Source: Antedon bifida (lineage: Eukaryota > Echinodermata > Crinoidea > Comatulida > Antedonidae). From it: a stretch of 64,000 bases of DNA. A model generated the notes under the pieces. It was not told the DNA's origin. It worked only from the letters and a program-made list of their open reading frames with translations, and did no database searches. The stretch lies in the NCBI GenBank assembly GCA_963402885.1, contig OY727095.1:19163001-19227000 (forward strand). The letters run 5' to 3'. The position numbers were made by a program, and so were the translations under genes. This document shows positions 13,577-52,963 of this stretch, one piece after another (within the stretch, counting starts at the first letter, position 1; every line of letters begins with the position of its first letter).

Positions 13577-16150
13577 CTATTTTGGTGTTACATTTTCACT
13601 ACCTTTAAGTATTTCTCTAATTCTTCGGCATTTACTATTGACAGCCTCTTTTAAAGCTAAATAATTGTCTGAGGTGGCACCAGGAAATGTCTGTTCAATT
13701 TGTCTGAAAAGTGCTCGCGAACATGGCGCTTCTAGTGCTGGCCTTGTGACAAGTTTGCCATTCTCTATTTTCTTAGAGCCGTACAAATTAGATACTGCTA
13801 GCTCCTCCTGTGTGAGCATTATGTCCAGCAGTCTTCTAGTCATTTTTGTTGCTGACTTATTTTTGCCAACGCCAACTGCGGCTTTGTACTTTTCCTCGGC
13901 TACGGGCACCAGCCCCCCTATATGAACAATGCCATTACTGTCAGCTTTACCATTTGTTTCACCAAGTAAGGCATTGGTCGGCGGAGCTGCTACTTGCTGC
14001 ACTTGTTGAGTATAACCTAACCGGGTGGTTAGCTGCTGCATAATAATTGTTTGATTTGTTATAATTGTTTCCAGCATGTTTGGGACCTTCATGCACTTTG
14101 CGCAAGCGCATGCCGTACATCCAGTTTGATCTGAAAGAAGAAATGTATAACATTCATTTAATATAATCGTATAGGATGCCCAACGTTTTTATAATATCAA
14201 AAATATAACAGGCCAATGCGGTGCCAAGTTAATATTAATTTACATTCACTGTGTATAGTTTAAAATGGGTCAAAACACCGATTTTCACAAATTAAAAGAA
14301 AAAAAAAACCATTTAAGTTAAAGTTGGGAAGATAATACAAAATAAATAAATTCAATGAAATAGGTAACAGTTAAGGGATCTTAATTAAGAATTAAATACT
14401 TATCAAAACAACTATTATTCAAAGTGATATATACTTACTACTTAAGACTGTGCTGCTCAATAGAGGACCAGCAAGGACTTCGACAAGAAGGTCGGAATCG
14501 ATATCAAGCTCAATGTCTATAATTAAAAAAATGTCAATGATAATTGTTATACACAACACCTAGTTTGGGAACAACATAATGGTTTATTTATTTATTTCAT
14601 TTATTTACCCAGGGTAGTTCATACCATTGGAGCCCTGCCAATTACTTGTCTAGTAAATAAATTCGAGGGTTTCATAATATATTTATATGCTGTTATTAAA
14701 CGTTACACACCGTTATTAAAATGCCGTCGTTGGTGTCTGTATTTTTAGGTATTAATCTAATCTAGAATATACACGTTTTGTTTCATTATTTTGCTTCTCC
14801 AATTTTGTGTGTATGTAATATTTGAATCGTTAATGTAAATTACTATTCATGATGTTACTTATTACTGTGATTTTATGTTGTTATTTACTTTTTTTAAACA
14901 AAACAAATTGCAGGACTTACCGCTTTCCGATGGACTCTCGAATTCCGTCACGATTACGGCGTTGGGTGACTGGGGTTGGATGTCAAAATTCGGGATCGGT
15001 CGTTCATTTTCCGTTTGCTCATTATTTGGTTTCTCTTTGTCCGTTTGGTCATTATTTGGTTTCTCCTTGTCCGTTTGGTTATTCTTTTGGTTTTCCTTTT
15101 CTGTTTGGTCATTCTTGGGTTTCTCCTTTTCTGTTTGGTCACTCTTGGATTTCTCCTTTTCCCTTTGGTCATTCCTGGGTTTCTCCGTTTCTGTTTGGTC
15201 ATTTTCCGTTTGGTCATTCTTGGGGTTTTCTTTTTCCGTTTGGTCATTCTTGGGTTTCTCCGTTTCTGTTTGGTCATTTTCCGTTTGGTCATTCTTGGGT
15301 TTCTCATTTTCCGTTTGGTCTTTCTTTGGTCTCTCATTTTCTGTGTTGACATCTTTCCTGGGGTCATTCTTCCTTGATTTTTTGTTAGGGGAGTCAACAG
15401 TAACTTCAGAGTCATCATCTGTCGATATAAAATGATTAATCAGTTATACAGGAATGACAAAATATAAAGGATATTAGGTTTAAGTCTATAATTTAATAAA
15501 AGAAAGTACAGTCATAAATATATTAAATCATTAGGTTTAAAATTTGATTGCGCCTATAATTTAATTTTATTATGATTTCAGAAAAAACAATAGGCCTACT
15601 GTTACAAATATGGCTTGTGCCATTACAAAATACATGTTATATAGGCTAATATTGAGGTACGATTAAATATTTTAAATATAATTATAATAAAGTGTAATAT
15701 GCAAAATATACATTTTTTTAGTGCGCATTTTTATCAATTTTGGCGTAAAAATATGTTAAATAATCGACCAGCCTCGAGAACGTACAATGCGTGGATAATG
15801 TCTGTATTACGTCAACTCGTATGTTCACGATAACATTCGACAGCAAGTACAACAGTAGGTCTGGTATTTAAGAAGTTAAAATAAATATTATTCATTCACT
15901 ATTTGAATGAATAACTACAATATAACATTACTTACCAAGCTCTCGCTTGCGTTTCTCCCAGAACAGTGTGTCTTTGTGAACTAAATCATCAGATGTGTCA
16001 GAGTTGTTTGTTGTATACCATTTTAACGACACCGTTAGGAACTTTGTCTCCCTGCAACTTCTTAGATAGTACAATTGCTGTACTTTCGTCTGAATCAAAA
16101 TAGACCAAAGCATGTGCTGGTACAACAGTTTTCTGACGGCGTAGAGACAT
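13577..16150 (-). CDS. BEN-domain protein encoded by the Zator element, about 447 aa
   Basis: Exons: 15936-16150, 14921-15418, 14439-14516 and 13577-14130, all GT-AG. The start is MSLRRQKTVVPAHALVYFDSD. Exon 2 encodes a highly charged tandem repeat (NDQTEKEKPK type, about 110 residues). Exon 3 gives an acidic patch (IELDIDSDLLVEVLAG). Exon 4 has a Cys cluster (GCTACACAKC) and then a C-terminal BEN domain: KMTRRLLDIMLTQEELAVSN, YGSKK, RPALEAP, FRQIEQTFPG. One single-base frame slip occurs in exon 1 near an A-run around 16,022. With it discounted, all four exons share one frame, so it is either a sequencing error or the only break. BEN domains bind DNA/chromatin. The likely role is an accessory to transposition or target choice (inference). 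It lies downstream of the transposase on the same strand. Confidence 0.75.
14583..14660 (-). repeat. CR1/L2-type 3' tail in BEN intron 2
   Basis: The minus strand shows a GCAGGGCTCC-like segment, then CTACCCTGGGTAAATAAATG and an ATTT-rich tail. It resembles the fragment at 12,290-12,375 and lies wholly within the intron between exons 2 and 3. Confidence 0.4.
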
Positions 16151-17125
16151 TTTAAAATTCGATGTTACTTGTAGAAATAATTATGATGAAGTGATAGTTA
16201 TGGATGCCTCGACTGTGCATTTATTGACACTATTGTTTACTGGACTGCACAGGGACGCATTCCAAAGATGCTCAAATCAAACTTTCTCAGGCTTCAGGTA
16301 AACAGTGAAGGTGTGGTATATTACGTAATGAAAACTAAAACAATGCTGTATATTAAAATAAACAGCCAAATTATCTACGACTAAAAGCCAACACAAATGC
16401 ACAAATAATGGGATTTGAAAATAACAATTTGCAAGGTGTTCACAAAACAGTATAACAAATACAAAAATTAATATTAAAATTGTTAATTTAAATATAGGTA
16501 CCTCACGCTTCCCCACAAGAGATATTGCAATACTAAAAATTCAAAATTATCAGCAGCCACAGTCTTCGATATGTGATTTAAAACTCATTTTTAAGAACAT
16601 AATGAATTGAAAATAAAGCAAATTAATTAACTATAAGTAACTATATTTTACACCGTCAGTGTAAGAAAGTATAATAGTGTGAACAACTTGAATAAGATCA
16701 CAACTATTGTGAATTTGTGTGGGAGTAATTTAAACAGGTTACATATTTGGCTAATACCTGTGTTCGTCATTGTAGTAGTAGAAAAGTCGTCAAAATGTAT
16801 TCTTTTAATGTGTGTTTATTACCTCCGCCAAGGGGGTTTATGTAGTCTATATTTAATAGTAGCATGATTACTAAAACGAACTTATTCCAGATCTTTAACA
16901 CATTGAAACCACATACAGATATGGGTCAATGAGCATTCAATAGTATTATGGGATCCCAATTCTGGACCACTTTTTTTTATTATCATCAATATTTTAAACA
17001 GAAGACAATTTTCAAAATCAGGCAATCTGGTACTGAGCAGTCGTAACGAGGGCCTAACAAGTAAACTGCATTTATTAAAATAAAATATAGAATAAGGATA
17101 ATAATAAAATAAACGAAAAATAATA
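16151..17125. other. Gene-free interval between BEN gene and direct repeat
   Basis: AT-rich DNA 5' of the BEN gene, presumably with its promoter. Around 16,290-16,480 is a decayed relative of the direct repeat at 17,126-17,236 (CAGGTAAACAGTGAAG, AAGCCAACACAAATGC). No gene was recognised. Confidence 0.4.
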
Positions 17126-17236
17126 AGCCAACGCAAAGGGCAAATTCAATGGCTTCTGAAATTAACAATTTAACAGCTGTGTCAAATAGCTTCATATAAA
17201 CAGTGTCGAAATACAAAAGGATTATAATACAAAAGG
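17126..17236 (+). repeat. Direct repeat, left copy
   Basis: About 110 bp (AAGCCAACGCAAAGGGCAAA ... AAAAGGATTATAATACAAAA) repeated in the same orientation at 21,835-21,947 with few changes. The pair brackets the transposase gene region within the Zator element. Confidence 0.85.
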
Positions 17237-17784
17237 TTAATAATTAGAATTTCTATTCCACGCTTTTACATACTAGAGAGAGAAGATCTGGTCATCAGTT
17301 AATTGCATATTGAGGTGTGATTTGTCAAGTACCAAAGAAGCAGCAAGCAGTGACAGCTATAAAACCACCTCCCCTTTTAGGCATTATGGTGAATTGGAAA
17401 TATATAGTATACTATGGTACAGGTTCCTCCACAATAATATAAGCAAATCTGTTCTGTTCTTTTTGAAAAATTACCGTTGTTAAAACAATTTGTAAATTAA
17501 TCTATCTTTTTCAATAGAAATTACAGTACAAATATATCTATATTTAGCACGATATTCAGTGCACTCGTGTATCGTTTTCCATTAATTTTCAAACTAACAG
17601 CGAAATTCAATTGGGCGTTTAATACATTGTTTTAAGTCCATAGTATATTAAGTCACAGAAATTGTACCGTATGATTTTTATTCATTCTGTATTGTTTTAC
17701 TGTTCGTCCATTGTCCAATAAATGTATTGATATTATGCTAATTATTAAATACTATGGTACGCGAACAAACCACGTTATTGTTAA

Positions 17785-18252
17785 AGATGTATTGTCCCTT
17801 TGAGTAATTCCCAAAAAAAAATTTTTTTTCATATTTCGAAAAAAAGTGTGTCATTTTTAAGTATCATGATAGTTATTAACTTTGACCAAAAATTTGTTCC
17901 AAAAAAAAAAAATTCAACCGAAATACGGACGTTTTTTTGTTCAAAAAATAACTTTGACTTCCAGTCAAAGTTTTCGATCAAAACATATTCATAATGCAAC
18001 GCGCTTGTTTGGCTACTCTGTATGCATAATCATAAAACTTCCTCGCGATCTGTGTGAAAACACCTTCTCAACCGCGACGAGTTGTAAACAATCCTAATTA
18101 GCATCATGCATACTCGTGGTTTGAAATCTTTGTTTACTTTCACTCGTGACGATTTTCCAGACGAAATGTAATTAAATTAATTTACCTGTTAATTACTAAT
18201 TAATTAATTTTTTTTTTTTTTCATTTTTTGTGTTTCAAGGGACAATACATCT
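17785..18252. mobile_element. 468-bp MITE with TTAA target duplication
   Basis: TIRs AGATGTATTGTCCCTT (left) and the complement AAGGGACAATACATCT (right) are flanked by TTAA at 17,781-17,784 and 18,253-18,256. Inside are homopolymer A/T runs and no gene. TTAA targeting fits the piggyBac, Kolobok or Sola3 groups; which one cannot be told here. It lies within the Zator element. Confidence 0.85.
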
Positions 18253-18699
18253 TTAAGAATTTGGAAATTATTATTTGTTTGAACTTCAAATAATAATAGC
18301 CGTACATTCCCTGAAAGCAAAAAATAAATAAATAAAAATACCATAATACAAAAGTATACAAGCAAGACAGTACAATAAATTCATAAAATGGAAATCTTTA
18401 ATTCTGATTCACACATCAATAGATCATTGCAGTTATACTACGATATGTATACAGTATTGATAATCAAGATTACTTTATTGTCCAAAAATAATATTTTAAA
18501 ATTTGTCTTCCTAAAGGCAACAAACAGCATAAAAAAACGTTTAAAAAAGTTTAAAACGTTATATAAAAATATACAGTATGTAAAAAATTCATAAAAAAAC
18601 TAGATATATAAAAATACAATAAAATACAGATATATTTCAGTGTACAAAGGCTGAAATAGGCCAACATATATAAATTACAAGTAGTTTTAAACATAGCAA
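18253..18699. other. 3' flank of the Zator transposase
   Basis: AT-rich DNA. On the minus strand an AATAAA occurs at about 18,474-18,479 (TTTATT on the plus strand), some 220 bp after the stop, and could serve as the poly(A) signal. No gene was seen. Confidence 0.4.
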
Positions 18700-21021
18700 C
18701 TAAAGGACCTGCTGCCTTGGATGGTACTTTCTCCTGTGAGAAGTTATCTCTGCGTTGCTGTTGAATCCATATGCGGGACAAATGGCACATCTTCCACCAG
18801 CAGGTGGCATCAGCTGATCGAGAGTATCCCATGAATTTAACTTTAATACCTCATGAATGGTGAGGAAGTGTCCTTCCTTCTCGCTTTGCATGGGTGAAGG
18901 AAATCCATCCCTATTAAAACAGGCATTCATTACATCGTGGGCAATTATAGGATTGCGGCTGCAATGTGTACAGTTAGGGTCTCTACATTTAGAAAAAACT
19001 AAAAAACCTTTCCTTTTATCAATATGTTGAAGCATAAACTGGGACTCGTCTACAAGATTGCTTTGTCTGAACGTTTTCCCGCTGTTAGACGCCATAACAG
19101 CGTGCACTTGACTGTAGTCATCATAAGGCGTTTCTTTTGACGAAGACAATAAGTGGCTTACACTAATCGGAACGCCGCTAAAATGTACACTTTTCCAGTA
19201 TTGTTCTAAGTTTTTTAGTGCGTTGTCAAATACTTTACATTCTTTCAGACGCATTTCTTCTTCGTTTAAACCTTGCTGCCATGGCGGTCTGTCTTCGCAT
19301 TCAAGTCGATCCGTGAACATAACAGACGTTAACGCTAATGTACAAGGAGCCCACGCATGTTCGATCGGATTTAGAGCCGATTGTCCTGGAGCATACGCTG
19401 TCACAATCAGAGCATCTAAGCCAGTATCTCTAAACAGTCTAGCATAATATAGTAAATTTGTATGATGACCGGAATTAAAGTCGCACCCGCCATCTGCAAT
19501 TATAGTTAAAATTGATTTTCCTGTACGGACTTCCTCTTTCACTATTGGCAGCAGGTCGTTGATATGGGAGGCTATGGTGCATTTTGTCATGGGTCCCCTG
19601 TTAATGATGGTAACGGGGCCATTCCTATGTAGTTTGTATTCTAGCCGACCTAGCGAATCAATCGATTTTTCAGGGGGGTTAGGTAGTGTCAATTTCATAT
19701 AACCACATGGTGTAATTAGGTAGCCTGAATGACTTGGGAAGTCGTGATCTAAAAGCACCGGCCTGTCAATGGTTGGAAATATTCTTCTTATTTTTGTCCT
19801 TCGATCAACAGCTGGGACATCTTTTCCTTTAAAAATAAAAACAATAAATAATAATAATATAATAATAATAGTAATACAAATATAGAGTTGACGCAATACA
19901 CATTCTCAAGACACTTTGTATGGTCTACTGGTAGGGCTTGGTTATAATTGATATGACTTTGTATTTAGGTTCGTACACTTAAATAAAGAAATAATGTATT
20001 AATTTAAAGAAAAGTATTTTCCAACGAAATATAGCACATTTCACAAAATTATTTTAGAGTTTCCAGATTATCATCAAAACCCATTCTCATTCACTCCCTC
20101 GCCGACAATTTTGCGTTACATAACTGCTTTTCTTTCAAGATTATCATAAGCAATTCAAATTAAATGTAAAATAAGTTGTTTTAATTAATATTTATTTCAG
20201 AATCCACCTAACATTCTCACCCAATTTTGTATGGCCGTTAATATTCTGTGGATGTTACATTTGAAAATTCTTAATTGTATATGATTGATCTTACCTATCT
20301 TCACTTTGTTTTTGTTGTCAACAGAATATACACTACACACATCCGGAAATGCTGCACTTAATTGAAGGCAATACTTCACCCTCGCATTGTAAAAATGAGC
20401 ATTGTCATTTTCTTTCATCCTTCCATTATCTTTTTTTGGAACTTTAGCATCGATGAAACCTTTGTACCTTGCTGAACTGTTACGACCTTGATGAGGGGCC
20501 TGTAGCATGCGGTGCACAGTATGAATACCTACAGAAAGAAAATTAATAAAGTTGTCATTGTTTTGCATGATCACATTATACCATGGAAAATTCTTTATGA
20601 TTATACTAGGTAAATTACAAAAGTCGACGCTATGTCGATTTATCCATCCGGGTCCCCGTCCCGGATTCATAGGCCTAGTTTAATTATATATTTAATATAC
20701 TTGGATATCCATATAAATAATAATTTATCAAATGTTGTACTTACTAAAATTGGGATGCTGCTCAGCCAAACCTGGTACTTCGTGAAGAAGATGGTCCCGA
20801 ACCGCTTTCAGACCAGTTCCACAGTGTCCGGTGGTGCTTTGGCGACGTCGATGTGCTTCAAATCCACTTCTTTCAATAAAGTTTTTAGCTATTTCAATAA
20901 TTTGCGGGAATTTGTCTACAATTGCTCGTTTTACAGGAGGCCGGTTTTCGTTTTCACTCGAAGTGTCAATTAACAAATTTGTCAATAGTCTTGAAGGTTT
21001 GTGATTGCTTGTATTTAACAT
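18700..21021 (-). CDS. Zator-type DD43E transposase, 545 aa
   Basis: Three exons: 20745-21021, 20295-20528 and 18700-19826. Donors GTAAGT and GTAAGA and acceptors TCTGTAG and TTTAAAG give 1,638 coding bases with no break. Catalytic residues: first Asp in VYSVDNKNKVKIG (about residue 165), second Asp in TIIADGGCDFNSG, Glu in APGQSALNPIEHAW, with 43 residues between D and E. HDFP....GYLITPCGYM lies between D1 and D2. The N-terminal helix HPNFSIHTVHRMLQ resembles the DNA-binding part of ISAzo13-like transposases. The C-terminus has CRDPNCTHC and a C2H2-like finger CAICPAYGF...H..KYH, both unlike the bacterial proteins. It would cut at the 27-bp TIRs in the nucleus. Every diagnostic residue is present, so it may be active. 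Confidence 0.85.
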
Positions 21022-21834
21022 AATGCTGACGACAAGAAAGATATGCTACAAATAAATTCAATGAGACCGGAACTGTATCTGTAACAATGTAGCCTAAAGT
21101 GGACTCTTCCGACTTTTCAGTGCTTTTTCGAACAAATGAAACGACTGGGCGTTTCGATTTTGTGAGCGTTACAATAAATTATATTAAATAAATCTTAAAA
21201 GTAATTTTACCATAGTTTGACCACCGTTGTTTTACCTAAGTACCTAAGTAAGGAAAAAAATTCCTCAGCAGGACTTTGAGGGGATTTGAACTGTGAAAAG
21301 CTGGAGATACACCAAACAGGCATTCACAAGGTTTTGGTGCAATTAGCCTAATCACACTCAGAACTAAGACACAAAAATAAAAAACAAATGTCGAATGAAA
21401 TCGTATGTTATAGGGGACGTATAGTTTAGTTATTGTTATGGTTTGAACGCACTAGTTGTAAATTACAGCCAACGTTTCACCATATAGATATTATAATATT
21501 TCTATGGTTTTCACCAATGACAACTGTCAAGCTAGAGAAAGCATTATAATTATGATATCCATTTTAGTAAAGAAAATGGCAAAATGTTCTCAACCTTTTA
21601 TTTATCATTTACAGGGAAATGTGTGTATGACTACCATTTTTTACTCTTTAGGTCGTCAAAACTGCCTTTTCCAAAGCTGATTTTTTGTTGGGTGGTATTC
21701 TCATAGAGTACTATTTTTCTTAGATATCATGTTAACAGTAAAATAAAGTATGCACCCTACCCGCATTATTAAATAATGCACAACTTATTAGACAAGGATG
21801 TATATTAAAAATAAGCAGTCAGTAACAAAAGAAG
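21022..21834. other. 5' flank of the Zator transposase
   Basis: No gene was recognised between the transposase start and the right copy of the direct repeat. AT-rich, with no clear promoter motif. Confidence 0.35.
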
Positions 21835-21947
21835 CCAACGCAAAGCGAAAATTCAATGGCTTCTGAAATTAACAATTTAACAGCTGTGTCAAATTGCTTC
21901 ATATAAACAGTGTCGAAATACAAAAGGATTATAATACAAAAGGTTAA
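21835..21947 (+). repeat. Direct repeat, right copy
   Basis: Copy of 17,126-17,236 in the same orientation, including GGCTTCTGAAATTAACAATT and GTCGAAATACAAAAGGATTA. It lies about 0.8 kb upstream of the transposase start. Confidence 0.85.
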
Positions 21948-22099
21948 TACTGTAATTAGAATTGCTATCCCACACTACAAAATTAATAAAACGCTTATGT
22001 GTCATTTATCCGCCATACGTTAACCATGGAGTAAAGAATATTCCATGCGTTAACAAAATAAAGGTTTACTATTTTTAAATAATGTTAATGGATGTTTGT

Positions 22100-22760
22100 T
22101 TTATAAAGGCGAATGGCAAAAAAAACCAGAAAAGGCATCATACAAAAATATGACATTTTTGATACGCCGTACACAAACAGGTCGCAAACCGGCGAAGGTA
22201 GTCGGGAGCAGACGCAGCGTGTTACCGAATCTATTATCACATAATTCTAAAGAGTACACGCATACTATCGCGACCGGACGAAGTAAATCGAAGTTTATAG
22301 CCATGTTATTATTACTACTGTACAGTAAATAATTGTTTTTGTTTTATACACGATGGTGCGTGATCAAAAGGTCAAATCACTCTTTATAGAAAGCCGACAC
22401 AAACCGAAGAATATTATTTAACTTGTCTCTAAATATAACTTTTTATTGAGGAATTTGGCGATCTGGTTCAATTGTTCAAAATGTAGGCCCCCGTGTAGGC
22501 CTATACAGTAGGCCTGTAATACAACATTTATTGTAGGTGTACCCCACTGTACAGAGAGGGTTAATCGTAAATGTGTGTACTCTTTTGCTGTGTAGCGTAC
22601 ATACAAAGTACACGAGGTACGCGTCGGTAAACTTCGCCTGGAAAGTAACTACGTATTTTGGTCCCTGGATGGAACATGATATATCACGCGTAAACCGCAA
22701 GGAGCCGGGCCCAGTGTTGAACCATTTGTACAAAGGGACACCTCGCGTTCCCCGAACGGA
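22100..22760 (-). repeat. Zator right subterminal inverted region
   Basis: Inverted counterpart of 11,100-11,580. On the minus strand an open frame (22,101-22,304) starts MAINFDLLRPVAIVCVYS. The left end has MTNFDLLRPVAIVFVY followed by a stop. This could be an old leader exon duplicated at both ends, or simply TIR sequence that happens to be open. Confidence 0.5.
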
Positions 22761-23017
22761 CGATCGAAGTAGCCTAGTTTCGCGACTGCCTGGCTACCCG
22801 GTGACATCACACAACACACAACAGTCGCAAGCGGACGCACCAGAGTTCGATAAATCGTTCAACGCGTACAGACGCGACCGGTCGCAAGTTTCTGCATCGG
22901 TATTGAAGGGCGGGGCTACAACTGGAATCCTCATGAATATGTAAATTAGAATTTAATGAGATAAATTAAATTACGGTCGCGTGCAGACGAACTGCTATTT
23001 TTAGACGCGATACACTT

Positions 23018-23044
23018 CGTCCGATATTTAGTGGAGATGACGCC
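23018..23044 (-). repeat. Zator right TIR
   Basis: Perfect 27-bp inverted match to the left TIR, followed by TAA and resumed R1 sequence. Confidence 0.9.
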
Positions 23045-24223
23045 TAATCTGTATACATATCACATACAGTGTAGAATAGGGGAAATTACGGAACCCGCTA
23101 TTTATTGCAATTTTTAACATGTTGATGGTTTTAAAATGAAACGCGAAGGTAGCAATTTTGGAAGGAAATTATCTCAGCAACAACATATTAACGTGTAGAA
23201 GAAATTTGAATAGGTGAAATATTAATGCGCGCTCTTTTAAATGTAATGAACTATGACGTAAAATATGAAAATACGACTTTTTTTATTTAACTGGCCATAT
23301 GATGACGTCACCACATCCGATTGGCAAAATTTTCACATGATTTTGTATCTACAATCCAATAGCTTCAAGAAAACGTTTTAATCGTGATTATCACATTTTA
23401 TTCTTACGAGCTATAACAGATTGAAATTTACTGTAAAGATGAAATTAATGCCACACGTAACTTAAATTTTTAGGCATGATGACGTCATAAAAATTAAAAT
23501 ATTTTTAATTCATGCTAAAGATAGTTCATTGACCTAGACAATATCAAAATCGGGGTGAAAATGGAAAACGGATAAGTGGAGATGCGCTCTATTAAACGTG
23601 AGGAGTTATGACGAAAGATACAAAAATCCTAAATTTCATATTCGCGTGGCCATACGATGACGTCACAATGTCCAGTTAGGAATTTTTGACATGCTCAAAA
23701 TGACATGAAACGCGTAGAAAGTTGATTAGAAATTGATTTTTCGCATTGTAAAATTTTAAACGCGTGTAAAACATGCCATTTTTAGTGCACAAAAAGTTAG
23801 CGCACGATATAAATTAGACTTTTGCTAAGTTTCAATTTAAATTTTATATGGTTTTCGATCTATGTTAAATACGCGAAATTCATAAAAACGCGCGTAAGTC
23901 ATGTTCCGCAACTCTGACGTCATTCAATTACAGGAAAGCACAACTTCACGTGATTGCCCATATGTTGACAAAGTTATAAAATGTTAACTTTACACGTTTT
24001 AGAGATACGCTCTGCACAAAAATGACAGAAAGAAAGAAGAATAATACAGAAAAACTAGATTTGAACTCGTCACTTTGACGAGTTCGGGTTATCCGCGCAA
24101 ACGCAACATGCACATACTTAACTATATGAACCTTGACAATTATTATGCCATCCTATGAGATGAAATAAATATGTTTACAGTGCTGAATTGTACCTATTAT
24201 GTAGCATACAGCATGTTACAGTA
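23045..24223 (+). repeat. R1 copy, right part
   Basis: Continues the R1 copy interrupted at 10,798. It contains repeated GATGACGTCA-type blocks and ends in the GACAGAAAGAAAGAAGAA junction at about 24,025, followed by the next copy's hairpin (AACTCGTCACTTTGACGAGTT, 24,064-24,084). No gene. Confidence 0.8.
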
Positions 24224-25558
24224 TTCATTCATTCATTCATTCATTCATTTATTATCCAGATAAATAATAACAATAATACAAAAAGCATAAATTACATTAA
24301 CAAAAACAAGCATAGAAAAAACGCAGAAACTATCCTGGCGGATTGTCAAAAAGCAAAAAATATCGCTATAGAAGACTCTCCTGATAGTGCTGGTGGCAAA
24401 ATAACAGAAACAAGGTTAAACATTTAACAATCCGGTAACATAGAATTTATATAAAACAGAATAAAAATTGCAATCATTATAAATAAACATGTCTGTGATA
24501 AATACCGGAATCTCATCCCACATCCGTGGAAATGAAATAAAAACAGAATTAAAAAAAGCATTTGTACGAGACTTCTCATGTCTAAAAACAAGTTTCTCAC
24601 TTCTACGTTCAACAGGTTTAGGTAGCAAAACACCATCAATTAGGAAATCTGTACAGAGGCACTTCACAACAAATTTAACACGGATGAATTTAAGTCTATT
24701 ATAAATCGTGGGTAATTTTAGAGTCCGTAACCTTTGTTCGTATGACGGCCGCATGTCATAATCCATGTGAAAAAAACGTGGGAAGCATGATCGTGTAAAG
24801 CGTCTCTGAACAGATTCAATCTGATTGATGGTGCTTTGCAGAAATGGAAACCAGACAGGTGAAGCGTATTCAAATACAGGCCTAATGATAGACTTAAATA
24901 ATTTAGGAAAAACGGTCTGATCATTGGTTCTAACACACCTCTTAATAAATCCAACAAGTTTATTGCATTTACCAGTAGTCAGAGAGATGTGTTTATTCCA
25001 CTTCAAATCTGAAGACAAGGTAACACCAAGATACTTGTATTCTGTTACACTTTCTAGTATTTTATTATCAATTCTATAATGAAAATACTGTTTTACTTTC
25101 GATCTAGAGATCGACATAACCTTACATTTACTGTTATTTAGAGACATATAATTATCAGTGCCCCATAGGGCTATGGCAGTTAGATCGTCTTGAAGCTTCA
25201 AACAATCATCTTGATTATTTATTACTCTGAACAAGACAGTATCATCTGCATATAATGCAATATTTGAATTAACTACTGATGGGAGCTCACATGTATACAA
25301 ATTAAAAAGAATAGGTCCCAACACGGAACCTTGGGGTACCCCCGATAATACATCTTTCCAATCTGAAAGTGAACCTTTGAATAACACTGCTTGGCTGCGG
25401 TTAATCAGAAAAGATTGCAACCAGCTCATGAGCTTACCGGCAAAGCCATATTTTTGTAGCTTATTAATGAGAACTGAGTGACAAACCTTGTCAAAAGCCT
25501 TTGACCAATCTAAAAACACAGCATCAACTCTTGGTGGTTTGTTTACATCCAAAAATTT
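24224..25558 (-). mobile_element. 5'-truncated CR1/Jockey-group LINE inserted in R1
   Basis: The reverse transcriptase C-terminal half is open on the minus strand from about 25,558 to 24,424. Motif A is FLDWSKAFDKV, motif B SGVPQGSVLGP, motif C ALYADDTVLF, followed by a thumb/C-terminal region (YKYLGVTLSSDLKWNKH). The 3' end is a (GAAT)n microsatellite (24,224-24,249, ATTC on the plus strand), as in CR1/L2-like LINEs. The endonuclease and the first part of the RT are absent. The apparent N-terminal 25 residues of the open frame come from flanking R1 sequence. It is dead by truncation but has an open RT frame. Confidence 0.85.
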
Positions 25559-27544: not shown

Positions 27545-27548
27545 TACT

Positions 27549-28250: not shown

Positions 28251-28255
28251 TGAAT

Positions 28256-28918: not shown

Positions 28919-28925
28919 AGGGAAT

Positions 28926-32096: not shown

Positions 32097-32330
32097 ATTC
32101 AGGAATAAATTCAATTAACGAAAACGGAAAGAAAGCGGTAAAGAAAAGGCAAACTTTGAACACTAAAGACTTTTTGGTTCGAGAATTCTAACAAAAAGTT
32201 GCTAACTGTTTTCCGAATTGCATTACAAATGTAAATGATGAATATATATATAAATTTGATAGGCATGGGTAAAACCCGCAAACAACAAAAAACGGCCATT
32301 GATGCAAAACAAACGGAATAGTAGCGCACA

Positions 32331-37640: not shown

Positions 37641-37870
37641 TTTTAAATAATTTGCTTTTTAATCATATATTATCAATTACATTATTCTAAATTATTAGTG
37701 TGACCAGTGACAAACTTGACAATTTGACAAAATAAACTATATATCTACTATCAATTTTCCAAATATAACCACAGAAAATTGATATCGATCAATCTCTAGT
37801 GAAATTAATTGAGGATGCTATATAGCCAAAATTATAGGCTCCTATCTAGCTCTGTTGAACAGTTGCTATT

Positions 37871-42235: not shown

Positions 42236-43159
42236 AAATAATTTGCTTTTTAATCATATTATTATCAATTACATTATTCTAAATTATTAGTGTGACCAGT
42301 GACGAACTTGACAATTTGACAAAATAAACTATATATCTACTATCAATTTTATCAATATAACCACAGAAAGTTGATACCAATCAATCTCTAGTGAAATTAA
42401 TTGAGGATGCTATATAGCCAAAATTATAGGCTCCTATCTAGCTCTGAACACTTACTCTTTTTTAAGTCTTTCATATGATCTGTCAATGTTTATTTTGCGA
42501 TGATGGGTTAAATCTTCTTGTCGGCACCATGATGAGATATTTCTCTCTCCCAGCTTAGACCTAACTCTGGTCCATTATGATGGATGGATGGAGTTGTTTC
42601 AGAAAATTAAATTTTCCTAAGCTCTCAGTTTACAATTATCATCATATCGGTTTTATAAACCATGTTGTAGGTGAAAATGTGTCATCTCCTAATATAAAAT
42701 GGTAGTTCTTGACCACCTACAACAGATGGATGGCAGATTCAGTGTTCCGTACTCGGCCTTTTTGAAAATTGAGGATCCCCAAAAATTGCAGCATCATTTA
42801 CGGACAAGGACAGAAAGTATAATACTTCAAGATACATAAACGCTAATTATAAAAGATACAAAATTGACCATGTTAAAAAATAAACTTTGAATTTATAGCT
42901 TAATACCTCTAAAAATATATTGGCGCCAACAGATGACTTGTCCAATACACTTACATACACAACATGCAGCCACCGCAGGGCATACTCGATTTGGTTGCAT
43001 GTGATTTTCTTCATGCATACAATGAAAGCCCCTCTTCTGTGTGGGAGGACATTTTGTCAAAACAATATAAATAACTGCCAATGTGTAAAAGGGTATTTCA
43101 TTTGATGTTAGTCAGTTGGTCTGCTGGACTGATGTTGCAGAGGAATAATAGCACTCTTT

Positions 43160-44285
43160 TTAATTAACCCTTATCTTGCCGGATTCTTTTTAAGCGCAGT
43201 TCACAAAAAACGCATTCTTTTTTGATAGTGATCATTTTTTCACGTTTTTAGAGGCAGTTCCCTTTGTTGACCATTTAAATCACTTTCTGTTAGTTTTATG
43301 GAAAAAAGTTTCGAAAAACAAATGTTCCTTATGAAATAAGCTACATTGTAAATTTTTTTTTTTTTTTTTTTGAGTAATGGTTATATAACAAAAAATGCCA
43401 AAAATGGCCAAAAAAATGCAAAAAAAAAAAAAAATGCAAAAAAAAAATTTTTTTTTTTCAATATATAATTATTTTTTTTTTCAATCTAAATATTGTTTGA
43501 ATATAAATATTACATATTTATGTTTATAAGCAGTATAGAGAACACAAGTATTCAAAATGAAAACACTTATCTCATTCACCAAAGTGCATGTCACAATTTT
43601 GTCTAAAACTTTTTTCCATTTACAGTAATTGAATAATGTTTGATACCAAATGAAAGGTCTTGAAATGTGCTTTCCAAATACATTATTTCTTTCTTGAACT
43701 AAATAAATGAAAATTATACAAATTGACAGTAAAACAAATGATTGTCTATTTTTCTTTGTGTCTGTGTAAGTCTAAATCTATCGAAGTATTCCACTAAAAA
43801 AAAAAATGGAAAAAAAAAATACCATTATTACCATGAAGTCCTCTTCATATTTGACCAAGGAGATTGGTAGTTATGCATATTTACACAATATCTCCTTTGT
43901 ATTTGAATAGTTTTATTATTTTATAAAACCTGTGTGAAAAACTATATGATGTTGAATTAGTTAGCCACATATGGAATATGCGACGTCCACAGGGCCGCCA
44001 CGTGAAGGCTTCAACATGGCCCCGGGGAGGGACAATCCCAAAGGCAGCAAAAGTGTAATCAAGGTGATTATAATTGAATGATTGATTATAAAAAATGATG
44101 GTTGGACAAGGTAGATATGGTAGAAGTCTACCGAAATTATATATTTTGTGATAGAAGGGCGGAACAATACTGGTCATCATCCGGGAGGGACAATCCCCAA
44201 GGCAGAAAAAGCGTAATCAAGGTGATTTTCACCATCTTTTCCACGAACGCTAACTTTGTCTTTCTTTCCTGGACAGATTCTGCTA
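43160..44285. mobile_element. Insertion in array unit 3
   Basis: After GCACTCTTTTT the array sequence is replaced by AACCCTTATCTTGCCGGATT..., a block that also begins at 57,684, so it is a separate dispersed repeat. It holds long A and T runs (43,350-43,450) and two related 60-70-bp segments (GGGAGGGACAATCCC.AAGGCAG at about 44,025 and 44,185). No gene was recognised. The right border, near ATCATTTTGCGATGATGG, may also involve a deletion of array sequence. Confidence 0.45.
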
Positions 44286-44974
44286 TTATCATCATTTTGC
44301 GATGATGGGTTAAATCTTCTTGTCGGCACCATGATGAGATATTTCTCTCTCCCAGCTTAGACCTAACTCTGGTCCATTATGATGGATTAAATTTTCCTAA
44401 GCTCTCAGTTTACAATTATCATCATATCGGTTTTATAAACCATGTTTTAAGTGAAAATGTGTCATCTCCTAATATAAAATGGTAGTTGTTGACCACCTAC
44501 AACAGATGGGTGGCAGATTCAGTGTTCCGTACTCGGCCTTTTTGGAGGATGAGGATCCCCAAAAATAGCAGCACCATGTATTTGTCATCATAAATGACCA
44601 TTAGTACTAAAGTTGATAGCTTACAATCAATATAGTGAAATATAACCTACCATAAAGCTACAAATTCTAGGCTAGACTATTATATAGTCGTGTACAGGCA
44701 GCTGAAATCAACTTTGACCCTACTCTAGTAGGAGGAGGATTTTCGGTTTTAACATTTCTATATTTATCTATCCACATTTTTTTGTGATATAATTACTGCA
44801 GTCGCATGTAATATTGTTTTAAGATTTTCTGATAGAAATGTCCGGAACCACATTTAGTGTTGAAACGACAGATAAACAATAAGGAAAGAAAGTATAATAC
44901 TTCAAGATACATAAACGCTAATTATAAAAGATACAAGATTGACCATGTTAAAAAATAAACTTTTAATTTATAGT

Positions 44975-46870
44975 TTAATACCTCTAAAAATCTATTGGCA
45001 CCAACAGATGACTTGTCCAATACACTTACATACACAAAATGTTGGTTGCAGCCACCGCAGGGCATGCTCGATTTGGTTGCATGTGATTTTCTTAATGCAT
45101 ACAACGAAAGCCTCTCTTCCATGCACCAATTGTTCTTTCCACTATGCTTCTTGATACAAAATGTGCACTGTTGTACCTTCTTTCTTCAGGTGTTATAGGA
45201 TTTTAAGTACGGTCTTAAGGCATATCCAGAGTCGCCCAACAAGTACCCGGCAGTAAATGGCATCATTTTGGTCTGTAGAATTACGTTTTGTCCGCTTTGG
45301 TAAAGGATTATCCTTTTTATAAGGGCACATTCCGTGGACAGGGGCGTCATCGGAATTTTGTGGTTTAAGCATAACTGTGTAACGTCAAGCTTTTCGGATT
45401 CCATTTCAATACAGGGGGCAATTTGGAATTTGAAACTAAAATTACGATAAATAAAATGTATTTAAAATAAACAGTGCATTCACAGTGACTTATTAACATT
45501 TATAGTTTTATACCTCTAAAAATCTATTGCCATCAACATATGACTTGTCCAATACACTTCTGTTGGATTCATTTTTTTGTTTTCGAAGGCCTAGTCCACA
45601 TGAATTGGCTAATACCTCCATACTGAACACCAAGTCTATAACTTGATTAAGCAAAATACAGCTGCTTCATTTAATGGCTTTTTTCTGGCTTTTTGCTCTG
45701 CAATGTAGAGATTGGTACTGTTCACCTCCACTGTAAACCTGACGGGTCTACTATCAGGCATTTCTAATAGAACAATGCATTAAAAGGCCATCAGATATTT
45801 TATGCTGAACATTAGATATTGTCCTTTATGGTGTCATAATTCTAAACTGACCAGTAATGATAACATGTAAATGCATCTAGGAATAATAATTTATTTACTA
45901 ACCTGGTAAACCAGGTACAGTACATTCAAGACCAATGATTTCCTGCAGATACTCCCACGCTGCCTTCATCTTGAAATCCTCTCTGTAATAGACAAAGTCC
46001 GCCACCACCACTGGGGCATGCCTTGCCAAATGCTCCATTGCACTACCTTGAATCAGGCGGTGGTATTGGACACATATAGTTCCCCTTCTTAGCCACAGGT
46101 GTCAGGGTGCTGCGATCCACTGAACTGCTTCACCGCCGGCGGTTACAGGTGGGCTTCTTGAGGCAGATGGGCTCGAGGCCGGTCGGCTTCTTGAGGCAAT
46201 CGATCAGGCCTATGACCGGGAAAAACCTGTCGCCCGAGCAACTGGCCGCCCCCCTGGTGTTTTGACAAGAGGTAGCCACGACGTTCAGATGTAAGTCCTG
46301 GCACGCAAATGTCGTCTTGATTGTTTCTATTTCTTTAATCAATGTTTGGAATCAATTACGAACAATACCGCATCTCCCTTCCATGAGGTAATTATTTTTA
46401 AATAATATATAAATGTTGAAGATAGCTTACCATATACATTTTATGAATGTGGTTGCCCAAAAAGCACGGTCTTGCAATGAATATTTTGTTTAGACGTGCA
46501 GATGTCTAACTCATGATGATATGAAAAGCTGGGAGATTACTTACAACATTTAAATGTAAATTAATGTTGTGTCCTTTGGTACATATCTAGTTCTCTAGAA
46601 GATGTATCTATAGCTTAAGTAAGGAGATCCCCTTTTGTCTGATATATATATAATATAAGGTAGTATCTTAAGTAAGTTCAACATTATATAAATTTATGTA
46701 ATGTATACGTATTACGTATACTAGAAAAGTCAGTTTTAACTTAAAGCATCGCTAATTCACTTTGAACTCTCCAATATGGACATTTCTTCTTTGTTGATGC
46801 TGAATTTAGGTAGTTTTAGCCAGTCGTCATCAGTCAGCGACTGAATTCTTCTCAGAAGCACCAACCTTTC
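44975..46870 (-). pseudogene. Array unit 3: decayed BEN/Harbinger gene copy
   Basis: Holds NPITPEERRYNSAHS (45,185-45,200 and on), AGYLLGDSGYALRPYL at about 45,205-45,255, a BEN-like exon at 45,513-45,750 in a good frame (NLYIAEQKARKKPLNEAAV), an AAWEYLQEIIGLEC exon with a good donor (CAG/GTTAGT, near 45,903), and the LPKFSINKEEM exon near 46,800. An extra BEN-tail exon lies at 44,975-45,122. A deletion fuses KMMPF directly to AGYLLGDSG. Confidence 0.55.
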
Positions 46871-47839
46871 ACCACTTCTTTTTTTAAATAATTTACTTTT
46901 TAATCATGTATTATCAATTACATTATTCTAAATTATTAGTGTGACCAGTGACAAACTTGACAGTTTTACAAAATAAACTATATATCTACTATCAATTTTA
47001 TCAATATAACCACAGAAAGTTGATATCAATCAATCTCTAGTGAAATTAATTGAGGATGCTATATAGCCAAAATTATAGCCTCCTATCTAGCTCTGAACAC
47101 TTACTCTTTTTTAAGTCTTTCATATGATCTGTCAATGTTTATTTTGCGATGATGGGTTAAATCTTCTTGTCGGCACCATGATGAGATATTTCTCTCTCCC
47201 AGCTTAGACCTAACTCTGGTCCATTATGATGGATGGATGGAGTTGTTTCAGAAAATTAAATTTTCCTAAGCTCTCAGTTTACAATTATCATCATATCGGT
47301 TTTATAAACCATGTTGTAAGTGAAAATGTGTCATCTCCTAATATAAAATGGTAGTTGTTGACCACTTACAACAGATGGGTGGCAGATTCAGTGTTCCGCA
47401 CTCAGCCCTTTTAAAAAATGAGGATCCCCAAAAATAGCAGCACCATGTATTTGTCATCATACATGACCTTTAGTACTAAAGTTGATAGCTTACAATCAAT
47501 ATAGGGAAATATAACCTACCATAAAGCTACAAATTCTAGTATAGTCTATTATATAGTCGTGTACAGGCAGCTGAAATCAACTTTGACCCTACTCTAATAG
47601 GAGGGGATTTTCGGTTTTAACATTTCTATATTTATCTACATTTTTTTGTGATATAATTACTGCAGTCGCATGTAATATTTTTTTAAGATTTCAGGATAGA
47701 AATATCCGGAACCACATTTAGTGTTGAAACGACAGCTAAACAATAAGGACAGAAAGTATAATACTTCAACATACATAAACGCTAATTATAAAAGATACAA
47801 AATTGACCATGTTAAAAAATAAACTTTTAATTTATAGTT

Positions 47840-49330
47840 TAATACCTCTAAAAATTTATTGGCGCCAACAGATGACTTGTCCAATACACTTACATACACA
47901 AAATGTTGGTTGCAGCCACCGCAGGGCATGCTCGATTTGGTTGCATGTGATTTTCTTAATGCATACAACGAAAGCGTCTCTTCCATGCACCAATTGTTCT
48001 TTCCACTATGCTTCTTGATACAGAATGTGCACTGTTGTACCTTCTTTCTTCAGGTGTTATAGGATTTTAAGTACGGTCTTAAGGCATATCCAGAGTCGCC
48101 CAACAAGTACCCGGCAGCCATATTTATTTTCCAGGTACTGCATGTTTCGGATGTGTGTGTATAATTTCTTTTATATTTAGTTACAAAATATCCAACCGGT
48201 GAGTGTTGGCTGGATTTTAGGTCATCTTGGGGAATAATACCTGTTTGTTGACGTACTCTAAGGAAAAATTTTGTGCACTGTGGAGCTTTGATGTCTTTTG
48301 TAATTGATAGGAGCAGGAGGGTCATGGAATAAATATGTTGTCTTTGAAATTCATATGTGTGTATACAGGTGGCGATGCCATTCAAATCAATGGAAAGGTC
48401 GATTACGGAAAAGTCGAGTAGTCTATGGGGTAGGACATTTTGTCAAAACAACATAAATAACTGCCAATGTGTAAAAGGATATTTCATTTGATGTTAGTCA
48501 GTTGGTCTGCTGGACTGATGTTGCAGAGGAATAATAGCACTCTTTTTAAGGAATCTAAAGTAAATGGCATCATTTTGGTATGTAGAATTACGTTTTGTCC
48601 GCTTTGGTAAAGGATTATCCTTTTTATAAGGGCACATTCCGTGGACAGGCGCGTCATCGGAATTTTGTGGTTTAAGCATAACTGGGACGTCAAGCTTTTC
48701 GGATTCCATTTCAGTTTTGACAAGAGGTAGCCACGACGTTCAGATGTAAGTCCTGGCACGCAAATGTCGTCTTGATTGTTTCTATTTCTTTAATCAATGT
48801 TTGGAATCAATTACGAACAATACCGCATCTCCCTTCCATGAGGTAATTATTTTTAAATAATATATAAATGTTGAAGATAGCTTACCATATACATTTTATG
48901 AATGTGGTTGCCCAAAAAGCACGGTCTTGCAATGAATATTTTGTTTAGACGTGCAGATGTCTAACTCATGATGATATGAAAAGCTGGGAGATTACTTACA
49001 ACATTTAAATGTAAATTAATGTTGTGTCCTTTGGTACATATCTAGTTCTCTAGAAGATGTATCTCCAGCTTAAGTAAGGAGATCCCCTTTTTCTGATATA
49101 TATATAATATAAGGTAGTATCTTAAGTAAGTTCAACATTATATAAATTATGTAATGTATACGTATTACGTATACTAGAAAAGTCAGTTTTAACTTAAAGC
49201 ATCGCTAATTCACTTTGAACTCTCCAATATGGACATTTCTTCTTTGTTGATGCTGAATTTAGGTAGTTTTAGCCAGTCGCCATCATTCAGCGACTGAATT
49301 CTTCTCAGAAGCACCAACCTTTCACCACTT
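47840..49330 (-). pseudogene. Array unit 4: shortened BEN/Harbinger gene copy
   Basis: Holds the BEN-tail exon (SVLDKSSVGANKFLE, about 47,845-47,905) and the Harbinger block, AGYLLGDSGYALRPYL near 48,065-48,115 followed by NPITPEERR. About 2.2 kb of the unit, including the main BEN-like exon, is deleted between about 48,715 and 48,720, where ATTTCAG joins TTTTGACAAGAGG. Confidence 0.55.
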
Positions 49331-50684
49331 CTTTTTTTAAATAATTTGCTTTTTAATCATATATTATCAATTATATTATTCTAAATTTTTAGTGTGACCA
49401 GTGACAAACTTGACAATTTGACAAAATAAACTATATATCTACTATCAATTTTATCAATATAACCACAGAAAGTTGATATCAATCAATCTCTAGTGAAATT
49501 AATTGAGGATGCTATATAGCCAAAATTATAGGCTCCTATCTAGCTCTGAACAGTTACTCTTTTTTAAGTCTTTCATATGATCTGTCAATGTTTATTTTGC
49601 GATGATGGGTTAAATCTTCTTGTCGGCACCATGATGAGATATTTCTCTCTCCCAGCTTAGACCTACAGTACAGATAATAATTACTGCAACATCTCTACGC
49701 GTAGACTACGTATACAACGTGTAGAGAATTCGTAGGATATGCGTGGCGCTCTACGCGTAGGCTACGAATGCCCTCCTGGGCATGGCTCGTCGCGGCGGCC
49801 GCGCTGCTACACACTGGCGCGACGATGGGATGCACTCATTCAAGTCTAGGCCTAGGACCTAGTCGTCAGGGGAGTGACAGCCGGAGTCGAGAGAATCGTT
49901 TATCTACTAGGCCTAGTATATAAGCATTTTGAATTACAAAATACATTTAATTAAAGTAACTGTAGGGGCCTAGTACACTAGGCCTACTGTGTGGTACTGT
50001 ATAATTAGAAATAAAAACATTTTGAACTCAACCAAGTGACCCGTTCGATCATATCATAGCCATAGATAGGCTACACGGATGAGTCGAGTATGAGCTTGCA
50101 TTGATTAGGCCTAGCTAGCTAGGCCTAGGCTTCCATAGGCTTAGATCAATATTATAAGGTCGTCAACCTTTATTTATATTTCATTCTTTAAACCACTATT
50201 TTTTTTAAACCTTCAAATAACCCGTAACATACTTTACAAAATAAACATGACAGTCGATTTTGATATTCATGTTTTTTAAATATGGAGCGCCAATTGCGCA
50301 TGCATGATAATGTATGTTAACGGACAAATAAAAAATAGTTTGGTATTTTTTTTCAAAGACGGGGAAGATGCGGTGATGGTTGACAAATCACAGTGCATGA
50401 TACGGTGTTTATATTCAATCCGATGGAATTGTATGAAATGTACTTAGGCCTTATGATGGTTGCAAGGATCCGATTGAAAAACTGAATTTCGTATTTTTAT
50501 AACGGTAACAAAATCGCTATCTGATGTTGAAATATTTATTTGGAAATAACAATACAGAGAAGAGCACATGAATACTTATAGATTGGTATACAATATTCTT
50601 TTAATAAATTTAATCAAAAATATTGACAATGAATTATTATTATTATTTTTAAATTCTATGTCAAATGACAATATGACAAACCCT

Positions 50685-52963
50685 TTATTCATTACTGTAC
50701 ATCTGCATTAGGCCTATTCGGTTTTTGTGTCGCCTAATGTCATCGATGGATTGCAGGCATCTTTTCCAAGCATCCCCCTGCAACCCATGAGGAATCGGCG
50801 GTATACTGCTTAACTTTGGCCATTCTTGCCGGATCAAGTTTATCAGACCCCCGTTTACCTGATGTATTACACCGCTCACGTTCTTCTTCTGTGAAGAAAT
50901 ATTCCACCAGACACCTGGCAACCTTTCGACAGTCGTCGTGGTAAGCCATTAGTTTTGTAATTAGAGCATGTGGTATTTCGTCTTGTTCTTGTTGTGGTAG
51001 TTGTGCTGGTGGTGGTAGTTGTGCTGGTGGTGGTATTTGTTGTTGCTGTGACATTTGTGTTGGCTGTTGTATTAGTTGGGGTTGTGGTGGTATTACATGT
51101 GGTGACCTAATGCATTCAAGTGTTGCCAGGCGCTGGTGGAAAGAGCGCAATTGTTGCTCTTGCCTTTCAATAGTGCTCTCTTGCACCTCCACCTTCTCTT
51201 CTAACTTTCGCAATTTGCGCCGTAAATCATCAAGGCCCGCGTCAGATTGATGATCATGCTCATCTACTGCTCTGGGAGGTTCTTTGCCCGTTGCATTGAC
51301 AGCGTTTTCTACGAGTTCGGCTAGGATCCCGTCGGCTTCATCGAGGTCTAAGTCAACATCATCTTCCACCGTCGAGCGCGCCGCAGGCTGAACATGTAGT
51401 ACACGAGCCGCCTAAGTAAATGAATAATAATACAATCGAAACAATTTATTTAGGTAACAAATGATTCAAATAAATGGAGTACATGAGCCGCCTAAAATAA
51501 ATTAATAAAAACAAAACATTTCATTTTATAATACAGTTAACCCATAATTAAAACATCAAAGGGTATATAGCTAATTTTATATTATTGGACGTTGTTATGA
51601 ATCGCACACCTCTCCTACTCAATATAAATTACCGTCGGACCTACTTAAGTGGCTAGATTACTGTGGCGTTATTCATATTGTATTTGAACGGTGAATATAA
51701 CGGTCATGCTGGAACATATTGGATTGCAAGTAGGAAATGGATGTTAAATTGCAATTCAATTCACATTTATTTACTCATCGTTTATAAATTATTTGTTGAT
51801 TGGTTGATCTAACGAAACCTGCTGCATTTTCAATTTTGATACCTGTATAATACATGAATTAGGCTTAACTTATAGTTAATTCCCGAATCGAATCTATTAT
51901 GTCTATTAATTGCTATAGTAGTAGGCCTATAGACTTAAGTTGCGTTTAGATGAGCCCTCTTCACTTACCGGTTTCTCTACGGAGAGGGTCTTTCATTTTT
52001 TGGTTGTTGGTTGACTAATTGGTCGTTTCTGTGCTGTTTGTTTCGGGACAGCTGCGTCTTTAATTGGAGTAGTTGCATCTCCCTCTGCCTCCGCAGCTTC
52101 TTCTGCCATGTCCTCTCGTGCTTCTCCAGATACTATATGCTCGTATCTCACGCGCAATCCTATGCTTGATACGACCTGGAAAATATAATATAACACAAAT
52201 TAAAAGCGGATAGGCCTAGACTTTTTGAATAATAACAATATTAGGATTAATAGCTCAAACGCCGCCAGAAAGTTTTGGATAGACGCACACACGACTTATA
52301 ATTTCGTGAGTCTACTTGAGTAATGCATGTTTAGCGGTAGGCCTAATCACTTTATAACAATTTAATAATGGATCATCATGTTTTTTGTTTATCCATACTT
52401 AAATATATAGGCCTATATATATATATAGGCCTTTTATCAGGCCTATATATAGGCCTTTTATTAGGCCTATATAGGCCTTTTATTAGGCCTATATACATAT
52501 ATTTTTTAATGGGGGTTTCACTTTTATATTTGATTAAATGAAACCAATCATACCTATTAGGCCTAGGCATATATACACACAAAATAACAATAATAAAACG
52601 TACGTAATGCCCATTAAAACAAAATGTATGCCTAAGCTAGACCAATTTAAGTTTACATTATTATATAGCTTAATTATGATTTTCTTACCTCACACAAGAA
52701 AGGGTCATTAATTTCCACCTCCATTGAAGGGGAAACCTGCCCACTTGGAAATCTCTTTTTGAATGTGTCCCCTCGTTGCATTTGACGATCCGTCCCGGTC
52801 ACTTTGTTTAAGCGCCGGAGCTCTGGTTCTCGGACATTGTCTTTGAGTAGCCAATCCATTGCACTTTGATCCTGCCGTCTTGTGATACTTCCTTTACTTT
52901 AGCACGTAGACACACCCCACAGGTATAATCAATAGCCTGCACTATAGCGCCAAGTTTAAACAT
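50685..52963 (-). CDS. Tudor-like plus BEN-domain protein of the Tc1/mariner element
   Basis: Exons: 52689-52963, 51969-52175 and 50685-51411. Exon 1 begins MFKLGAIVQAIDYTCGVCLR, AKVKEVSQDGRIKVQWIGY, then KDNVREPELRRLN: the pattern of a Tudor/Tudor-knot fold (AKV.EV..DG.IKV.W.GY). Exon 2 is an Ala/Glu-rich linker. Exon 3 has an acidic start, a coiled coil (LDDLRRKLRKLEEKVEVQES), a Pro/Gln-rich tract and a C-terminal BEN domain (CRKVARCLVEYFFTEEERER, KRGSDKLDPARMAKVKQ, then PHGLQGDAWKRCLQSIDDIR in the next frame). Breaks: a one-base slip in exon 1 near 52,840, a TGA in exon 2 after TTKK that looks like CpG decay of CGA, and a slip in the BEN domain near 50,815. It is probably a pseudogene in this copy. 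It may read chromatin marks and DNA for the transposon (inference). Confidence 0.65.
52395..52510. repeat. AGGCCT-rich tandem repeat
   Basis: About four copies of a 20-25-bp unit built on TATATAGGCCTTTTATTAGG, inside intron 1 of the Tudor/BEN gene region. AGGCCT is abundant across the whole window; this is its densest block. Confidence 0.8.

Follow-up and report, generated by a model that had tools for sequence, protein, structure and literature searches.

The window analysed here (the whole stretch of 64,000 nucleotides from contig OY727095.1 of Antedon bifida, whose first letter is position 1) is animal DNA of 64 kb with many transposable elements, and its best protein relatives come from crinoids. 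Two DNA transposons of the window, one assigned to the Zator and the other to the Tc1/mariner superfamily, each carry a gene encoding a BEN domain. An earlier reading of the letters alone, referred to below as the sequence-only reading, had placed BEN genes in three unrelated DNA transposons. Carriage is demonstrated for the Zator and the Tc1/mariner elements by their ends, their target-site duplications (TSDs) and paralogous empty sites in the window; it is not for the third carrier, a PIF/Harbinger-like array. The spans given at that time are those of the genes only, the elements themselves extending over 10,799-23,044 and 49,666-57,298. The word "unrelated" was too strong: the available part of PMC7386202 presents the Zator and Tc1/mariner superfamilies as sisters. 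In all three cases the BEN sequence does lie on the same strand as the transposase.

The features of the Zator element are the following (TIR, terminal inverted repeat):
10,799-23,044, genes on the minus strand: Zator element of 12,246 bp (TIR and TSD search, paralogous empty site)
10,799-10,832, plus strand: left TIR, 34 bp, 94% identical to the right TIR, the first 27 bp being identical
23,011-23,044, minus strand: right TIR (TIR and TSD search)
18,703-21,020, minus strand: Zator transposase in three coding blocks (about 20,743-21,020, 20,254-20,526 and 18,703-19,827), delimited by alignment with relatives
21,763-21,976, minus strand: repeat module upstream of the transposase, with a close copy at 17,068-17,264 and a decayed copy at 16,319-16,487, both upstream of the BEN gene
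13,577-16,150, minus strand: BEN gene, with exons at about 15,936-16,150, 14,921-15,418, 14,439-14,516 and 13,577-14,130 (splice sites placed by eye)
13,622-13,846, minus strand: BEN domain of this gene, BANP-like (Pfam, PDB, Smith-Waterman z of 15.6)

An inverted-repeat search with target duplications located the TSD, TAA, at 10,796-10,798 and 23,045-23,047. The empty site is a repeat copy at 279-956 in the same window, with its junction at 821-823: identity to the left flank of the element, ending at 10,798, is 93% over positions 279-823, and identity to the right flank, beginning at 23,045, is 98.5% over positions 821-956; the two matches overlap by three bases, which are the target duplication. 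Because both flanks match there with an overlap equal to the duplication, the 12,246 bp of the element are absent from this copy.

The transposase reads without interruption and shows 61-63% identity to the Antedon protein P0002; its closest relatives are a protein of Antedon mediterranea (63% identity) and one of Anneissia japonica (59%). The residues D, D and E are kept, as seen in an alignment with 14 relatives, wherever these cover the positions and with few exceptions, and 43 residues (counted by eye) separate the second D from the E. The open reading frame (ORF) of the transposase in the window has no match in Pfam; three of the 10 relatives scanned, among the 14 found, matched DDE_Tnp_ISAZ013 below its cut-off. 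Zator is described as ISAzo13-like with 3-bp target duplications in the accessible portions of PMC10045372 and PMC5718144. The assignment to Zator is considered as well supported, because ISAzo13-like DDE relatives and a 3-bp TSD fit this description. While sharing these two traits with the superfamily, the element stands apart by its length of 12.2 kb and its BEN gene, for which the available parts of the open-licence literature gave no earlier example in Zator.

The curated Pfam BEN profile (76 positions, cut-off of 23.2 bits) and the PDB (177,635 distinct sequences) were used as references for the BEN domains. The last exon of the Zator BEN gene scores 14.9 bits against the Pfam profile, covering positions 1-74, and its three best PDB matches are all the BEN domain of BANP (E of 0.068-0.077, a weak value when taken alone). 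With a local profile built on four BEN sequences, one of them being the BEN of the Tc1/mariner element, the exon ranks third of the 807 window ORFs of at least 35 aa (E of 0.002); two frames of the Tc1/mariner BEN gene rank above it and the array BEN pieces fall outside the 12 best. Together these comparisons give good support to a BEN identity for this gene. Its first exon has an apparent frame change. The repeats that the sequence-only reading had noticed in the protein are real, as tandem repeats cover 15,007-15,371 with periods of 30-105 bp.

Self-comparison revealed a module of about 150-210 bp upstream of the transposase that recurs on the same strand upstream of the BEN gene. Such a shared module would fit a common regulation of the two genes and is perhaps a duplicated promoter. 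A small hairpin element, with 62-nt arms that are 97% complementary, lies at 13,333-13,499, inside the Zator element and just downstream of the BEN gene.

The features of the Tc1/mariner element are the following:
49,666-57,298, genes on the minus strand: Tc1/mariner element of 7,633 bp (TIRs, TSD, empty sites in array units)
53,619-54,603, minus strand: Tc1-type transposase (sub-threshold Pfam matches, match to Sleeping Beauty)
50,685-52,963, minus strand: BEN gene, with exons at about 52,689-52,963, 51,969-52,175 and 50,685-51,411, encoding a coiled coil and a BEN domain
50,718-50,922, minus strand: BEN domain of this gene, in two frames (bridged Pfam reading, tblastn of P0001)

The TIRs are 27 bp long, 96% identical and start with CAGT, and the TSD is TA, at 49,664-49,665 and 57,299-57,300. 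The insertion lies in a tandem array, which is broken after 49,665. The left flank up to the junction is common to five other array units; in three of them the junction is followed by the same 12 bases that open the right flank of the element, ACTCTGGTCCAT, and the other two diverge after ACT. Beyond ACTCTGGTCCAT, the right flank is without about 85 bp that are present in the array units, after which the array sequence resumes.

The Tc1-type transposase was recognised by Pfam matches to HTH_Tnp_Tc3_2 (3.8e-5) and DDE_3 (0.0036), both below the cut-off, and by a match to Sleeping Beauty (E of 1.7e-4). The gene is broken in this copy: it has a frame change and, ahead of the last catalytic residue, what looks like an internal deletion (read by eye), so that its catalytic spacing is unreadable. 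The TA duplication, the short TIR starting with CAGT and the Tc1-type transposase are shared with the Tc1/mariner superfamily, from whose known members this element differs by its length of 7.6 kb, by having a multi-exon BEN gene as a second gene, and by the five copies of CYACGCGTAG that lie inward of its TIRs. A palindromic element is nested in it at 55,329-56,712, with inverted arms of 183 and 94 nt (96% and 89%) and three ACGCGT words.

The BEN domain of the Tc1/mariner gene scores 20.1 bits against the Pfam profile in a single frame and 25.7 bits when the frame change is bridged, which is above the cut-off. The only relative of the protein at E≤0.001 is P0001, from the crinoid Antedon (56% identity). 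P0001 itself scores 22.8 bits, just under the Pfam cut-off, and matches in the PDB the BEN domain of BEND3 (2.8e-7) and BANP (0.0097-0.014). By these matches, the gene is firmly placed among BEN genes. The "Tudor-like" part attributed to the protein is unconfirmed: a Tudor domain at the N-terminus was looked for and rejected, as this region has no Pfam match and a single PDB match with an E of 0.27, to which no weight was given.

The third BEN reading lies in the following features:
33,076-57,771, minus strand: tandem array of units of about 2.4-3.5 kb with PIF/Harbinger transposase remnants (self-comparison)
34,503-34,715, minus strand: first copy of the array BEN fragment, an NACC1-like N-terminal half (PDB match)
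45,511-45,779, minus strand: another copy of the fragment, in two frames, part of an 83-aa composite

Two elements interrupt the array: one with a reverse transcriptase, at about 35,426-37,191, and the Tc1/mariner element. Its DDE domain is of Harbinger type and partial, with DDE_Tnp_4 scores of 34.2 and 27.5 bits for a cut-off of 24.8. The 71-residue single-frame piece at 34,503-34,715 has NACC1 as its only PDB match (E of 0.023 and 0.030), and the 83-aa composite of two array copies matches the NACC1 BEN domain with an E of 2.6e-4. A Pfam BEN match was obtained neither for seven single-frame array pieces, nor for six unit translations with stops read as X (which gave DDE_Tnp_4 only), nor for the composite. 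In the profile search that the sequence-only reading had set as its refuting test, with failure of two of the three as the refuting outcome, only the BEN sequence of the Tc1/mariner element, with its frame change bridged, passes the Pfam cut-off, and the two others rest on PDB matches. The array fragment corresponds to the front half of the domain, without the DNA-reading helix, and adjoins the Harbinger transposase remnants. No plausible TIR for an array unit was seen among the 25 longest of the 83 inverted pairs of 43,000-49,665 or among the seven of 32,000-35,426, the interval 35,427-42,999 being outside that scan; carriage of this fragment by a bounded PIF/Harbinger element, as the sequence-only reading had it, is therefore not borne out in the pairs examined. 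Two ORFs of the window encode reverse transcriptase (RVT_1), at 35,416-37,128 and 24,416-25,630, the first sitting in the array at a place where other units run continuous.

The relationship between the three BEN sequences was assessed by pairwise Smith-Waterman alignment. The z values among the three are 3.6, 2.6 and -0.7, and those against known BEN proteins are 15.6 for Zator with BANP, 13.9 and 10.8 for Tc1/mariner with BEND3 and BANP, and 16.6 for the array with NACC1, these last values being inflated because the partners were picked as top matches. Where separate captures and the passage of one gene between superfamilies had both been proposed, this pattern favours separate captures, because each of the three comes closer to a known BEN protein of its own than to the other two; a single gene passed between superfamilies is disfavoured by the values of -0.7 to 3.6.

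The specificity to be expected of the element proteins was considered from known BEN domains. In the part of PMC11472053 that was available, BEN domains that read CpG or CGCG (BANP, BEND3) are distinguished from those that read other motifs (CATG for NACC1), the Arg316 site of BANP in helix 5 selects CpG, and CGCG is bound by BANP and BEND3, both of which are repelled by its methylation. In the alignment, the equivalent of Arg316, the CpG-reading arginine of BANP and BEND3, is kept in both the Zator and the Tc1/mariner BEN domains, the array fragment being without that region. The residues by which BANP contacts DNA are kept at five of eight positions in the Zator BEN and at four of eight in the Tc1/mariner BEN, as in BEND3 itself (four of eight).

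Owing to the relationship with BANP and BEND3, CGCG words were examined first at the element ends; hexamers at the ends were then ranked without a preset motif. The following sites are those of the Tc1/mariner element:
49,695-49,760, no strand: two CYACGCGTAG sites at the left end (starts at 49,695 and 49,751)
57,185-57,268, no strand: three CYACGCGTAG sites at the right end (starts at 57,185, 57,239 and 57,259)

In the 150 bp at each end of the Tc1/mariner element, CGCGTA and CTACGC top a list of 216 hexamers, with eight copies each versus none inside the element. None of 400 random intervals of the same length reaches eight copies of a hexamer that is absent inside, the maximum being six. 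The word CYACGCGTAG occurs five times in the 64-kb window, always at the ends of this element; measured from the nearer end, its CGCG lies at offsets 33 and 89 on the left and 34, 54 and 108 on the right. For the Zator element, with 300 bp at each end, CGCGAC tops the 465 hexamers (five copies versus two inside). The counts of TACGCG in the Tc1/mariner ends and of TCGCGA in the 300-bp Zator ends are above those of all 500 shuffles. The enrichment in terminal CGCG words is thus strong in the Tc1/mariner element and modest in the Zator element. In the TIR element at 59,857-61,937, the 600 bp next to each end are free of CGCG, as expected if end sites go with a BEN gene. These CGCG-cored end sites are circumstantial support for a binding of BEN proteins at the TIRs.

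The interpretation favoured here, tentatively and with somewhat less than an even chance of being right, is that two transposons carry multi-exon BEN genes, probably acquired separately, whose proteins would serve as accessory end-binding factors. The BEN protein of the element would bind the CGCG-cored sites located just inside the TIRs, perhaps as an oligomer formed through the coiled coil and perhaps better when the sites are unmethylated; once bound, it would contribute to the assembly or the timing of the complex formed by transposase and ends, or regulate the genes of the element. The binding to end sites, the oligomerisation, the methylation sensitivity and the effect on transposition are inferred.

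A few groups of DNA transposons are known to have accessory genes whose products bind DNA. Harbinger, like both elements, is a DNA transposon that encodes, besides its transposase, a sequence-specific DNA-binding protein. This protein is Myb-like in Harbinger and is reported, in the accessible part of PMC9179366, to associate with the transposase and to bind to the TIRs, whereas it is a BEN protein in the Zator and Tc1/mariner elements, where it would act on the CGCG sites as the Myb-like protein does on the TIRs. BANP, BEND3 and NACC1 share the BEN domain with the element proteins, and the architecture of BANP (coiled coil and BEN, as given in the available text of PMC11472053) resembles that of the element gene, but these three are host genes whereas the element genes lie inside DNA transposons. 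The BEN genes of bracoviruses that moved into moths (available parts of PMC4574769 and PMC4190172) are likewise BEN genes on mobile DNA, but they are carried by a wasp virus and not by a transposase-encoding DNA transposon. When viral contigs were scanned, P0001 gave six pattern matches and the Zator transposase four, none of which was confirmed. The accessible portions of the open-licence literature showed no DNA transposon reported to contain a BEN gene. The element-borne BEN genes and the CGCG words at the ends of both elements are considered as new, two-gene DNA transposons being already known.

Because BEN domains of the BANP and BEND3 type prefer unmethylated CpG, such genes would couple the movement of transposons to DNA methylation; host BEN genes could also derive from BEN genes borne by elements. 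In a broader form of the proposal, DNA transposons would have recruited BEN proteins, on more than one occasion, as accessory factors that bind their ends and sense CpG methylation, the element being moved or expressed only when its CGCG ends are unmethylated. This form is considered unlikely; if true, the mobility of such elements would be tied to the epigenetic state of the host.

Several results weigh against a role of the BEN proteins at the ends. Only one copy of each element was seen, which leaves the BEN gene a candidate for a regular part of each family. Each of the three Tc1/mariner BEN exons has a frame change (read by eye), so that the gene is broken in this copy, although an assembly error is possible because some of the changes fall at runs of A. 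The Zator BEN is below the Pfam cut-off, and no relative of its protein was found at E≤0.001 with a query without the repeat region. When the Zator ends are taken as 150 bp, ATATCG tops the list and no CGCG word does; hexamers absent inside this element reach at most two end copies. Bare CGCG is only mildly enriched, the value of the Tc1/mariner ends (150 bp) being reached by 25 of 500 shuffles and that of the Zator ends (300 bp) by 44 of 500. TACGCG has 12 copies in the window outside both elements, three ACGCGT words are found in the nested palindromic element, which has no BEN gene, and the transposase may be what binds the terminal sites.

The single copies, the broken Tc1/mariner gene and the lack of Zator BEN relatives at this threshold also favour the explanation that comes next, in which the BEN genes or exons are passive cargo, picked up by chance and with no role in the element. 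This explanation, which is rather unlikely yet has to be taken seriously, is opposed by the fact that two different elements each have, on the strand of the transposase, a multi-exon gene whose reading frames are nearly complete, by the existence of an Antedon relative with 56% identity to the Tc1/mariner BEN (P0001, which may or may not lie in an element), and by end sites of CGCG type that fit the expected BEN specificity.

The BEN proteins could instead act on host chromatin, binding unmethylated host CGCG and steering insertion or countering silencing. BANP and BEND3 are CpG-island binding proteins according to the available part of PMC11472053, and the CpG arginine is kept in the element BEN domains. 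Both insertions are nevertheless in repeats, which does not suggest a targeting of CpG-rich promoters (two sites say little), and the terminal CGCG sites would be left unexplained; an action on chromatin is accordingly rated as improbable.

The terminal CGCG-cored repeats could also be binding sites of the transposase, unconnected with the BEN proteins. Transposases of this group commonly bind near element ends, and the CGCG sites are 33-108 bp from the Tc1/mariner ends. Against this, CGCG-type end words occur in both elements despite their different transposases, and both BEN domains are of the CGCG-reading type, a coincidence that is suggestive only; sites owed to the transposase alone are judged quite improbable.

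That host BEN genes lie by chance between transposon ends, or that BEN genes sit in small nested elements, is very improbable. The array fragment, which shows adjacency only, in a decayed array, is without demonstrated element ends, and both element BEN genes have a short inverted pair rich in AT around them (13,546/17,071, 18 nt; 50,634/53,397, 17 nt), but the whole TIR-to-TIR interval is absent from paralogous repeats and both pairs are low-complexity sequence. Chance inclusion of host genes, which the sequence-only reading had named as the outcome that would undo it, fails for the Zator and Tc1/mariner elements because of their TIRs, TSDs and paralogous empty sites, and the idea of a small element, nested in the larger one and with nothing but the BEN gene in it, is rejected, as the only pairs around the genes are AT-rich and of low complexity.

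Other features of the window were recorded. An element-like interval at 59,857-61,937 has inverted ends of about 290 bp that are 95.5% identical. At its C-terminus, the ORF at 63,036-63,902 matches CXC (TCR) below the threshold. A tandem repeat at 27,538-28,256 is made of 8.4 copies of an 86-bp unit, with a related inverted piece 4 kb away at 32,311-32,486, and the 102 bp at 30,381-30,482 match their own reverse complement at 100%.

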